The notes below the pieces were generated by a model. That model had not been told where the DNA came from and made no database searches. It was given only the letters and a program-made list of their open reading frames with translations. The position numbers and the translations under genes were made by a program. A DNA stretch of 64,000 nt from Isoetes taiwanensis. Taxonomy: Eukaryota; Streptophyta; Lycopodiopsida; Isoetales; Isoetaceae. The DNA lies in NCBI GenBank assembly GCA_021234155.1, contig JAJEKV010000084.1:3879449-3943448 (forward strand), given 5' to 3'. This document shows, one piece after another, positions 36,116-63,583 of the stretch (position 1 is its first letter; every line of letters begins with the position of its first letter).

Positions 36116-36230
36116 TATATATATATATATATATATATATATATATATATATATATATATATATATATATATATATATATATATATATATATATATATAT
36201 ATATATATATATATATATATATAGATATAT
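36116..36230. repeat. (TA)n tract at the left edge of the array
   Basis: About 115 bp of nearly pure TA. The DNA to its left is unrelated to the end of a unit, so this marks the left border of the array. Confidence 0.95.
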
Positions 36231-37094
36231 AAATTCGCAATATTTTAATCTATTGTAGTCTGCTCTATTCTAGTTTACTTCAAAATTATGTGGACTTATA
36301 ATCCATGGACTGGTTTAATCCATGGCATAGGGCAGATAACATTAGGTTTAAAGTTTTTTTGGCTGGAGCATTATCCACCCTGGAACATGGTTAATTTGAA
36401 GGGGCATTAATTGCCTTTATCCTTGCATGTCCAAGTGAGCATCTAATAGTGCAACAAAAAAGGTTGAATACACTTGCCCTAATTTGGGTATATCCTAACC
36501 CCTATGGTATGAATTATGGAATGAAATGATAAGGGGTGAAGGATAAATATTGATGAGCATTTTCTACCCCCTAGTAGTTAAATTAAGGATGGATTAAATT
36601 AGGATTATGATTACAGGCCAATGGTTGGTGGGAATACGAATATGAAGTTGTTGCATAGGTCAGGTATTGGGGGGTGATAGGGGCAAACATCCCAAGGTAT
36701 AAAATGGCTATGGGTATTATGGCGTTTATATGGGCACTTGGTAACTTATGCTCGAAATGTGTTACACTTAATTAACTAATATTTTTCAATAGTACTTACA
36801 CCAACAGTTTTGTTGGCTAACTCTAATTTGAAAGGCAACCCTAACGATGGGGTGTCGTCTACGACGGCCTTGGGCTGATAGGTGCTGACGGATCCCTAAC
36901 GAACCATGGATGACCTTTTCGGAGTTTGTTACATGCAAAATATCGACATCTCGGATTGATCAAGACAGGTAACCAGCTGTTATGTTCCTTTTTCTTAATC
37001 TTCTTGTTATATTTGCTTAAGACAGACTGGTTTTTGGTTTTCTCGTAATCTGGTTTAGCCTCCATGCTATATAATATGATCAGATCCCTCTACC

Positions 37095-37436
37095 ATGAAC
37101 ACGAATTTTGGCATGAGTAAGGCTGGCCGACCTGAGGGTGTGTGCAATAAAGGGCAGACCAGATCTAAACTCATTGAATTCCTTAGAAGGAATGGCTTAG
37201 AGCATAGTAGCCCGCAGCCTACTAAAGCTCAACTGTTAGAGATGTGCAGAGCCCATGGATTAGATCCAAATAGGGACAAGAGTGATTCTGGAATTATAAA
37301 ATTCCTCCCTAGTCTGAATGCATGTGGGAATATCTCTAGATCTGGTAATACAACAAGCGGCAATGTGGAGATTGTTGCTGACTCTGAAATTGATGAAATT
37401 GAGGAAGATTCGGATGATGGAGTGCAACCAAATCAG
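37095..37436 (+). CDS. unit 1 exon 1: SAP-like/AT-hook-like segment
   Basis: Open 114-codon exon starting MNTNFGMSKAGRPEGVCNKG and ending ...DDGVQPNQ before a GT donor in phase 0. Same as unit 2 exon 1 apart from a few residues (QTRS for RTAS). In this unit the upstream CTATATAATATGATCAGATC keeps its CAG, showing that MNTNF is the start rather than an upstream ATG. Confidence 0.75.
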
Positions 37437-59993: not shown

Positions 59994-60883
59994 CTAAGAC
60001 TTGGTCTTCCCAACAGCGGTGTAATGCAAAGACCTTCGGGGATCTTCATATCCCACTCTAGTATGTTTCCATTATAAAGTAAATTCAAGAACATCTCCAA
60101 GGGTTAAACCAAACAATTTCTTAAATCGCATTTCCAACCCCCCTAAAATTTGCGCTGCTCTTGGGCCACCAAAGAACTTTTTTTCAACTTCTGGTCCATA
60201 ATCAACCTAATATATCCCTTGGTGGATGCGATGCTTGTTTTCATTCTCTAGTACCTAATTATAATAATAATAAAAATCTCTCGAGAACCTTAACACAATG
60301 CATGGAATCTAAATAATAAATATACCTATACTCGGTTGATATTGGCTCTGGTAGTGTGTGACGAAAATGGTTTATGAGATGGTGGTTCATCTTCGTCAAA
60401 AGTGTCATCATCGGATGTATCTAGTTCGCTACATGCGATCTTCAACTTAGCACCATGCTGTTTTTTTGAAACCACTGATTCTTAGTAGGCTTGCTGTGGC
60501 CCGGAACTTCCAAGTTGCCGCTACCAATAGGTTTCACGCGATAGTTTTCATCGCAGATCTGGGCGGTTAATGAGGTCCCATTGTTGGACAAACTACATAA
60601 AAGCGATCCTTCTACCATGTTGTTTCCTTTCGCCTTGATTCCCGGCCTTGGTTAAAGAATGTTCTACCACCCACGGTGGCTATATAAATGGAATACTCCT
60701 TAATTTGGTCCCAATACCAACAATATATTGATCTCGGGCGAAAGCAATACTCCCTCGGGCTTCTGTAAAACCTCGACTAAAGGTTAAGACTTTTATCTCT
60801 AAAAGGATATAGTCATGAAAGAATGTATCGGGTTTGCTCACCACAAATGACCGAACTTGACATCTACTAAAACTTTAAGCCAT
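59994..60883 (-). pseudogene. unit 3 B3-domain gene, frame-broken
   Basis: Aligns with the unit 2 B3 gene over its length but with numerous indels in both exons, for example around the GGGWNSF and GWESF codons. No long open frame. Confidence 0.65.
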
Positions 60884-61250
60884 AGCCAGAAAATAGGAAG
60901 GGAATATGGACTTGGAAGGTAAATTATTTTTTTTTAAATAGCTTATAAAGGAAGTACAAAGATTTATTAAGATTTAATGAAATAATAAAATATCTACTCT
61001 AATTATTGCTTGTGTAAGGCCTATTTGTAAGGCCTAAGATAGTACCATCATGGTGATAATATCTTATTAAATTTTAGGTATTACTACTAGTTTTTTTATT
61101 AAACTCCACCATTGGCTTTATTTTCTTTATAATCCACCAATTGTTTTAGGACATTTTTAACCTTTAGTTGGCGGGAGGGTCCCTTTGTTAGCAAAGGGAT
61201 CCTCCAATCCCTTTTGTTAACATATGGGACCTTATCGCCCCTTATGGGGG

Positions 61251-63583
61251 ATATATATATATATATATATATATATAGGTTCTCAATATTTTCCAATCTG
61301 TTGTATCACATCTATTCTAGTTTACTTCAAAATCTTGGGCATAGCATAATGGTTGGACACATTATGTGGACTTATAATCCATGGACGGTTTAATCCATGG
61401 CATAGGATCTTTAACATTAGGTTTAAAATTTTTTTTGGCGCAAAAGCCTTGGCCACCACGGAACATGGTTAATTTGAAGGGGCATTAATTGCCTTTATCC
61501 TTGCATGTCCAAGTGAGCATCTAATAGTGCAACAAAAAGGTTGAATACACTTACCCCAATTTGGGTATATCCTAACCCTATGGTATGATTTGAGAATGGA
61601 ATGATGAATGATAAGGTATGAAGGATAAATATGGTTGAGCATTTTTTACCCCCTAGCAGTTAAATTAAGGATGGATTAAATTAATATTATGATTCTAAAG
61701 CCAATGGTTGGTGGGAATCAAAATATGAAGTTGTTGCATAGGTATGTGTTGGGGGATGATAGGGGCAAACATCCCAAATGGTAAAATGAATATGGGTATT
61801 ATATGGTGTTTATATGGGCACTTGGTAACTGGTAAAATGTGTTACATAATTAACTAATATTTTCAATAGTACCTACAAAGTTTTGTTGGCTAACCCTAAG
61901 AAAAGGCAACCCTAGCGATGGGGTGTAAGTCTCTGACCTTGGGCTGATAGGTCTTGACGGATCCCCAAAACCATGGATGACCTTTTGATTGTTTGTTACA
62001 TGCAAAATATCGACATCTCCTGTTTGATCAAGGCATGTAAACAAACAAGTATGTTCCTTTTCTTAATCTTCTTGTTATATTTGCTTAAACAGCGGTGGTT
62101 TTGGTTTTCTATAATGCTGGTTTAACCTCCATGCTATATAATATGATCCGGATCCTCTACCATGAACACGCATTTTGGGCATGAGTAAAATTTCGTCGAC
62201 GAGGGTGTGTGCAATAAAGGCGCACGGATCTAAACTCATTGAATTCCTTAGAAGAATGGCTTAGAGCATAGTAGGCCCGACCTACTAAAAGCTCAAGCTA
62301 TTAGAATTGTGGAGCCCATGGATTAGATCCAAATAGGGACAAGGGTGATTACGGAATTATAAAATTCCTCCCTAGTCCGAATGCATGTGGGAATATCTCT
62401 AGATGCAGTAATACAACAAGCGGCAATGTGGAGTTTGTTTCGCTCTAAATTGAAGAAATTGAGAAGATTCGGATGATGGAGTGCAACCAAATCGAGGTTC
62501 CTACAATTGAATTGTTTAAATGCTGGTTTCTAACCATTTTATGTAATATTCTTTGTTATGATAGGGTGTTCTTAGTGGCATTAGTATTGCATGTCACAAT
62601 AATTGTAGGCATAACATGCTAGCATGCTAGTAGATTACTACTGATTCTGCATGAATTGCTTATTGAAATTAAGATGTAATGTTATAATCCATAGGTTGAT
62701 AACATGCAGTTTTAGGTATATTTATGTTAAACTGTGGGTAAAAGGCGTAAAATGCCAAGAGAGTTCATTGCTTACCCGTTAGCGGTGGGATTTTTTACCC
62801 TCTTAAGGCTAATTAGTTCTATTTGCTTTGCGGTGTGAGCTCTCTTCTCCTCATCGATCTACGTTTTTTGCATGGAAGCATGAATGATTGAAGAATGTTT
62901 TTATGTACTCTTGTATTTTATTGTATACAACGTTTATGGTAAGATTTTGATCCTTCAAGTTTAATTATTCAATGGAGTAAATCGTATGGTAAACTCTTAA
63001 TCCTTTTGTGTATTGTATTTTGAATATTATTTATGGCTGTTTTTTACCTTGGTAAAACATGTTTGGAGCACCTTGAAGTAATTTATGGTAATATAATTAT
63101 GGATCTTAGCCTTTGGCTTGCATTTTCTTATTCCATTTCCATACTTGCCTACTTTTTGGTTCATCGATGGTTTTTTAAATTTGCATGGTGTTTTCTGGTT
63201 TAATTTTAAGACTTTGGGTATTGCCCTTCTTTTTTAGATCATCTTTGGGTTTGACACATCCGTACAGTTCTCTTCTTCAAACAGGTATTCCAAATTGTTG
63301 TACAAGTTATTTTACAAGTTATTTAGCAATTTTATGGTACAGACATATTTGCTTGTTGTGGATGATTTCCTTTTGCTACATTTATTTGAAAAGGTTAATG
63401 TGTATCAAAGTAGTATGGTCAAGGTTAAATAATTGTATTATTAAATGAGTTGGCTGGTCTTATCTTTAGACTTTTTGTCTATGGTTAAACTATTATAGTT
63501 TACATGATCTCTAGGGCTCCCTCTTTAGGGTCCAATAAATTCGATGGTCTTATTTAGTTAGGTTAAAGGCTATTTTGAATGTC
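61251..63583 (+). mobile_element. array unit 4, truncated after the first intron region
   Basis: Starts with a TA tract (61251-61277) and contains the leader and exon 1 (62162-62497, frame-broken). It stops at GAATGTCTA, equivalent to about 38503 in unit 1, where a new TA tract begins. Exon 2, the RT exon and the B3 gene are absent. It shares the ~20-bp segment near 63016 with unit 1, not with units 2 and 3. Confidence 0.85.
62162..62497 (+). pseudogene. unit 4 exon 1, frame-broken
   Basis: Starts ATGAACACGCATTTTGGGCA and keeps the SAP-like region at DNA level, but single-base indels break the frame in several places. Confidence 0.65.

Follow-up and report, generated by a model that had tools for sequence, protein, structure and literature searches.

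What kind of element pairs a gene for a reverse transcriptase (RT) with an antisense gene for a plant B3 DNA-binding protein, and what is the B3 gene doing there? The question is raised by a 64,000-nt stretch of the Isoetes taiwanensis genome (contig JAJEKV010000084.1, positions 3,879,449 to 3,943,448 of the forward strand; hereafter the window), in which both genes recur in a head-to-tail array. The initial annotation, made from the sequence of the window, offered two answers: a retroelement lineage with its own DNA-binding factor, or a host B3 gene amplified together with an RT. We put the probability at about 0.7 that the array belongs to a new, endonuclease-less, TA-associated lineage of Penelope-like elements, which carries a captured and maintained B3 gene in one branch.

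Organization of the array

Self-comparison of the window bears out the annotated tandem array. Three units of ~8.3 kb and a 2.3-kb piece follow one another head to tail at 36205–63585; shifted by one, two and three unit lengths, the sequence matches itself at 92% over 19.4 kb, 89% over 10.9 kb and 87% over 2.4 kb, respectively. Each unit consists of a pseudo-long terminal repeat (pLTR) containing RT exon 1, then RT exons 2 and 3, an optional antisense B3 gene, a conserved motif of ~90 nt (motif A) and a (TA)n tract, and one more pLTR closes the array. The 2.3-kb piece had been read as a truncated fourth unit. A partial copy is indeed present, but it is the terminal pLTR: its end coincides in unit position with the ends of other arrays in the family, which rules out random truncation as its origin. 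The repeat period is 6.8, 7.4 and 7.9 kb in copies lacking B3 (loci L041, L043 and L044, respectively) and about 8.6 kb in copies with B3 (L039 and L040).

Linkage of the RT and B3 genes in the genome

The genome (1,658,258,908 bases on 1110 contigs) was scanned for both genes, and the counts that follow are from the best 150 of 2724 RT matches and the best 150 of 433 B3 matches. An antisense B3 gene lies 0.8–3.7 kb downstream of 48 of the 150 RT cores, at 37 places on 33 contigs, showing that the two genes occur together repeatedly. The B3 gene accompanies 8 of 8 RT cores with at least 90% identity, 2 of 4 at 78–89%, 21 of 30 at 70–77%, 7 of 57 at 64–69% and 10 of 51 below 64%. It is thus concentrated in the lineage nearest the window, and 102 of the 150 cores have no partner in the best-150 B3 table. 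The annotated RT–B3 element therefore holds in that the genes travel together, but B3 does not define the whole family. Viewed from the other side, the 150 B3 rows correspond to 142 loci after fragments are merged, and a scored RT adjoins 42 of 64 at ≥60% identity, 3 of 21 at 52–59%, 3 of 38 at 43–51% and 0 of 19 below 43%. Loci below 52% identity may be host genes or belong to a different family.

The position of the B3 gene within the unit was obtained from the spacing between RT and motif A. A scored RT core lies upstream of 43 of the 100 listed motif A sites, while the other 57 have none within 5 kb. The spacing is bimodal: 34 units have a spacer of 177–247 nt, none with B3, and nine have a spacer of 1.9–4.7 kb, all with B3. 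Because of this split, we conclude that B3 fills one slot, between the RT stop and motif A, and is a lineage-restricted module. A chance neighbourhood of the two genes is ruled out by the genome-wide linkage and the spacer split. Head-to-tail copies like those of the window, which are 87–92% identical in gapped alignment and 61–100% in ungapped stretches no longer than 300 nt, could also arise if a host locus holding a dead RT and a B3 gene had simply been duplicated in tandem. However, such a segmental duplication would not place RT cores with an antisense B3 gene at 37 places on 33 contigs, nor give the examined arrays their shared element-type ends, mostly (TA)n, and we regard it as highly improbable.

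The B3 gene

The B3 gene has three exons, the first of 15 codons, the second encoding the first B3 domain and the third the second. Pfam recognizes exon 2 with E values of 1e-4 to 5e-4 and exon 3 with 8e-5 to 2e-4, all under the curated cut-off of 30.1 bits. The antisense gene with two B3 domains was thus correctly annotated, with both B3 stretches found as matches below that cut-off. An RT-less B3 gene at L046 has both intron positions in common with the element gene, and 15 of the 16 residues of its first exon are identical. Because both introns are shared with this gene, the B3 gene of the element is, on sequence, of host type and was captured unspliced. Its antisense position would fit such a capture, because the RT transcript would carry the B3 introns untouched.

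The B3 copies examined are under purifying selection, and the module seems to be kept working. The median ratio of nonsynonymous to synonymous substitutions (dN/dS) is 0.141 for exon 2 (9 sequences, 29 of 36 pairs usable) and 0.116 for exon 3 (11 sequences, all 55 pairs usable), where pairs are not independent and the sequences are copies with readable frames. All 84 usable pairs have dN/dS below 1, at a median dS of 1.0 for exon 2 and 0.9 for exon 3.

RT and B3 distances are correlated across 14 loci (r = 0.61, reached in 0 of 2000 permutations). Between L025 and L009 the difference is 30% in RT and 3% in B3, and L020 is similar, with 29% and 10%. Because these loci differ from L009 far more in RT than in B3, the B3 segment has been swapped between RT lineages, and this exchange shows the element to be modular. 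The mosaics would fit template switching.

Could the B3 gene nevertheless be passive cargo that was trapped between units as a host gene and does nothing for the element? Penelope-like elements that carry a host gene between pLTRs with its introns kept are known from an excerpt of PMC3846280, B3 genes of host type with this structure occur without an RT (L046), and most of the scored family lacks B3 (102 of 150 cores). Cargo of this kind is hard to reconcile, however, with purifying selection in all 84 usable, deeply diverged pairs, with the same slot in all nine measurable units or with the swap onto another RT lineage, and we consider it rather unlikely. A captured and maintained gene leaves each of the two alternatives of the initial annotation partly right, as the gene is of host type and is now a maintained module.

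Other B3 genes were seen in the course of the scan. L046 carries two on opposite strands, at 1258–1826 (+) and 9244–9790 (−), with no RT match in 9.9 kb, and the B3 table holds some 40 more matches at 36–51% identity, several as opposite-strand pairs on one contig. Such pairs may represent clusters of host genes or a further mobile family. In unit 2, a 58-bp tandem duplication (51270–51393) lies a short way downstream of the B3 gene.

The RT gene and its class

The RT gene was annotated with three exons, and the sequences support this model. The exon 3 acceptor CAG|A is present at all 18 places examined, L040, L043 and L044 have exon 2 as a single frame of 515–589 codons between stops, and exon 1 ends in AATCAG|GT in 7 of 7 sources, although the peptide pattern used for their selection already required V or I there. 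The introns are retained in the DNA, and splicing itself is predicted. The gene is not intact in every unit: exon 3 is unbroken in unit 2 only, whose exon 2 is frame-broken, and the RT of units 1 and 3 contains many stops. Across the genome, the RT exon matches 64 scored loci at 58–100%. These loci, among them the window's own, are the best of 4723 first-look candidates, and 50 of them have no stop in the matched stretch, a share that ranking by score favours. The median dN/dS of the RT is 0.082 (16 sequences, with only 20 of 120 pairs unsaturated), and no usable pair reaches 1.

Exon 3 of the window gives a weak Pfam match to RVT_1 (E 3e-4), and RVT_1 matches all 16 aligned RT relatives, with a best E of 1.4e-6. 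For exon 1, Pfam gave only a weak match to SAM_EPH (1e-3), and the SAP label in Table 1 was assigned by eye. An AlphaFold model of the RT exon made without an alignment had a predicted local distance difference test (pLDDT) score of 33 and was unusable. No Pfam nuclease, GIY-YIG included, was found in RT exons 1–3; therefore, the element is not a canonical endonuclease-bearing, EN(+), member of the Penelope-like elements.

The assignment to the Penelope-like class is provisional and is based on structure and on RT motifs. Tandem and partial-tandem units give the arrangement pLTR–internal region–pLTR, and introns are retained in genomic copies, as seen from the exon 3 acceptors and the B3 introns. 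Alternatively, the RT might represent a separate class that has converged on a tandem pLTR organization. Its RVT_1 matches are only weak, no relative was found in the PDB by sequence or profile, none was confirmed in scans of IMG/VR and GTDB, and neither a hammerhead nor GIY-YIG was found. On the other hand, telomerase reverse transcriptase (TERT) was the best match among the non-self RTs compared, and we take the RT motifs of exon 3 to be Penelope-like. Furthermore, the pLTR arrangement, intron retention, tandem units and apparent internal initiation by AT-rich DNA match Penelope-like features in published extracts (PMC11167929, PMC3846280). We judge a separate RT class to be unlikely, and retain the Penelope-like assignment.

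Array ends and the TA repeats

Motif A lies just 5' of (TA)n at the internal unit boundaries, and the search pattern detects two of the three boundaries in the window. A loose version of the pattern gave 23 rows, representing 20 distinct places, and a stricter one matched 127 genomic sites, whereas its reversed form matched none. At least five TA repeats follow motif A at 20 of 22 distinct sites, the exceptions being L034 and L048. No further (TA)≥6 was found elsewhere in the window (1–36000 included) or in 47.6 kb of ten other loci (L001–L008, L046 and L055).

For motif A, RNAalifold predicts a closing stem together with three hairpins (one long, one short and one at the 3' end), and 4 of 21 pairs have both partners altered in one or more of 17 sequences. 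Covariation was counted in 71 distinct copies from the 100 listed of the 127 matches. The four pairs that extend the stem are formed in 70, 69, 51 and 46 of the 71 copies, as compared with shuffle means of 66.2, 65.7, 39.4 and 44.0; the observed counts were reached by 4, 26, 0 and 186 of 2000 shuffles, respectively. We dropped the notion of one proven fold, since a three-way junction and a long hairpin both fit. Motif A copies also occur in tandem on contigs C93, C120, C223 and C996, spaced by 4.3–5.5 kb and with no scored RT core near; these are possibly shorter, non-autonomous units.

Six of the seven arrays examined end at or near the pLTR end. In five of them, the right end is the pLTR end followed by (TA)n: the window, C985 (L047), C1033 (L043), C1048 (L051) and C1089 (L050). 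The break in the last four falls exactly at the short TATATAT that follows the conserved pLTR 3' end (motif B) in internal copies, and in the window it falls ~30 nt earlier. For example, internal copies in C985 read GGCCAGTC-TATATAT-CTCCCC, while the array end reads GGCCAGTC-(TA)7-flank. Three left ends were examined, and those of the window and C985 begin with (TA)n and then the unit start. Ends at the position of the internal TATATAT suggest TA-primed reverse transcription that starts inside the RNA. Two places combine a 3' fold with a downstream stretch that could pair with the target: motif B with TATATAT, where the fold was judged by eye, and motif A with (TA)n. The RNA stretch presumably pairs with a (TA)n target.

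Endonuclease-less Penelope-like elements are described as telomere-bound in section 8 of PMC6431247 and in an extract of PMC12477314. Telomeric repeats are not above chance in the window, with two matches at two mismatches where 0.58 were expected, a number that 14 of 100 shuffles reach. A telomeric association was rejected for the window, and most of the ends examined are (TA)n. An Rfam scan of 33000–64000 at E ≤ 5 gave four below-threshold matches, none to a hammerhead ribozyme (two of (TA)n to a microRNA family, one to a small nucleolar RNA and one to DUF805b RNA), and a scan of the array for the hammerhead core pattern found none.

Proposed mechanism

We propose that the array would be transcribed as a long RNA, from which spliced RNA would give an RT protein of roughly 1,300 amino acids, with unspliced RNA serving as the template. 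An exposed 3' end in chromosomal (TA)n would pair with the short UAUAUAU just past the pLTR end, at motif B. The RT could then begin inside the RNA at UAUAUAU, copy upstream through one or more units, and stop or re-anneal at the (UA)n preceding a unit, giving a left end capped with (TA)n. This would follow the logic of Terminons, in which a terminal fold is joined by a short sequence able to pair with the target; (TA)n would take the place of telomeric repeats. The B3 protein would bind DNA as an accessory factor of benefit to the element, most likely by acting on the element's expression or on the chromatin of its targets. More tentatively, and with less confidence than in the lineage itself, it might have been taken over as the element's own DNA-binding factor, steering it either to chromatin that is open or rich in (TA)n or to the element's pLTR, alongside TA-primed, endonuclease-free insertion.

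Several observations weigh against a TA-associated Penelope-like element with a maintained B3 gene. Outside its own family, the one resemblance noted for the RT is to the TERT of the same plant, and it is weak. Two of the seven right ends lack (TA)n, as C976 (L049) stops at the pLTR end and C1058 (L048) just after motif A, and the left end of C1058 also lacks it and, by distances, seems to begin inside a unit. The covariation term of the motif A alignment is small (−0.74), the covariation is modest, with one of the four extension pairs above every shuffle, and of the two competing folds the long hairpin is often preferred over the three-way junction in single-sequence folds. Damaged copies are under-represented among the B3 sequences compared for selection. 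The broken copy L015 runs opposite to the mosaics, differing from L009 by 16% in RT and by 38% in B3. Finally, a partner missing from the best-150 tables may rank lower.

Features of the window and its surroundings

The coordinates of the features are given in Table 1. Unit positions 1484–1703 (window 46008–46227), between RT exons 1 and 2, form a conserved non-coding block with 75–90% identity to other units, which may be a promoter or an RNA structure. An older relative probably ends in the left flank of the array, its pLTR-like end adjoining the left (TA) tract, although blastn of the flank against the unit of the window gave no DNA match. Elements may insert beside one another within the same TA repeats. 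Open frames farther out in the flank, at 15067–18452 (−) and 30003–31264 (+), look by eye like remnants of retrotransposons of the long interspersed nuclear element type. In C1058:1129522–1158757 (L027, L019/L042 and L012), a composite tandem is made up of a pair of units from one RT subfamily (70% to the RT of the window) and, after them, one unit from the subfamily of the window (92%).

Table 1. Features of the array and its left flank, in window coordinates.
Feature	Position	Strand	Remarks
Probable remnant of older relative	34362..36115	+	exon-1-like peptide at 34362-34547 (29% identity, E 4e-4); DNA resembling a pLTR end (by eye) reaches the (TA) tract
(TA)54-58 tract, array left end	36116..36231	.	
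Unit 1	36205..44524	+	full length; RT and B3 frames broken (self-alignment, stop count)
Motif A, unit 1	44429..44525	+	altered at 5' strand
(TA)11, unit boundary	44526..44547	.	
Unit 2	44525..52895	+	open in RT exon 3 and in the B3 exons, frame-broken in RT exon 2
RT exon 1, unit 2	45340..45777	+	within pLTR; small segment, SAP-like by eye; donor AATCAG|GT at 45778; start codon not fixed
Motif B, pLTR 3' end then TATATAT, unit 2	46763..46882	+	same at 38429 (unit 1) and 55138 (unit 3)
RT exon 2, unit 2	46990..48544	+	frame-broken; approximate splice sites
RT exon 3, unit 2	48781..50850	+	open; RT motifs DITKCYENIP, GIPMGFASSP, YIDD
B3 gene, unit 2	51628..52528	-	exon 1 52528-52484, exon 2 52402-51965, exon 3 51888-51628 (approximate)
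Motif A, unit 2	52800..52896	+	structured ~90-nt 3' end of unit directly before (TA)n
(TA)12, unit boundary	52897..52920	.	
Unit 3	52896..61250	+	full length; frames broken
Motif A, unit 3	before 61251	+	altered at 3' hairpin; pattern misses this copy
(TA)13, unit boundary	61252..61277	.	
Terminal pLTR-like copy, array 3' end	61251..63583	+	unit positions 1 to ~2311
Motif B, terminal pLTR	63505..63583	+	ends at (TA)n ~30 nt before internal TATATAT position
(TA)~41 tract, array right end	63584..63666	.	

Comparison with known systems

A full-text literature search gave no report joining Penelope-like elements, the B3 domain and reverse transcriptase, and among papers naming both Isoetes and Penelope none is, by its title, on such an element. 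The part of a gene-capture review that was available (PMC13317346) mentions neither 'Penelope' nor 'B3 domain'. The element is new relative to the literature searched. A plant family that seemingly uses (TA)n as telomere-bound relatives use telomeric repeats would show how a nuclease-less RT can live inside chromosomes, and its many genomic copies would make the idea of a fold with a complementary tail testable. A gene of transcription-factor type captured and kept by selection beside a retroelement RT is also unusual.

EN(−) Penelope-like elements of Selaginella were reportedly described by Gladyshev and Arkhipova in 2007. By description, they are alike in their lycophyte host and endonuclease-deficient class, but an extract of PMC12477314 reports them to be telomere-associated. 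The Athena elements and Terminons of bdelloid rotifers, which are endonuclease-deficient, are alike, in the portion of PMC6431247 that deals with them, in having no recognized endonuclease domain, in forming head-to-tail arrays, in carrying accessory or captured genes, in a 3' fold that precedes a short sequence able to pair with the target, and in 5' ends marked by repeats of the target type. They have telomeric repeats and units of up to 40 kb, whereas the Isoetes element has (TA)n ends, units of 6.8–8.6 kb, no hammerhead that we could find and a plant B3 gene.

Canonical Penelope/Poseidon elements, such as PAc of Anolis (PMC11167929, in part), also have tandem pLTR units, an internal start of reverse transcription, AT-rich targets and insertions that end on the initiation site. 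They differ in having GIY-YIG in the RT open reading frame and a hammerhead motif, neither of which was found in the Isoetes element. For gene capture, Pen3a of Adineta vaga offers a parallel, in that an intron-bearing host gene, for a nonribosomal peptide synthetase, has been mobilized between pLTRs; in the account excerpted from PMC3846280, however, that gene lies between pLTRs without an RT, whereas B3 sits beside the RT in one unit, at dozens of places and under purifying selection. A plant retroelement that has gained a host-type domain is likewise found in orchids, where Ty3/Gypsy elements are reported to have acquired an RNA demethylase domain (PMC9289625). Each is a long terminal repeat element with an RNA-modifying domain, whereas the Isoetes element carries a separate antisense gene for a DNA-binding protein.

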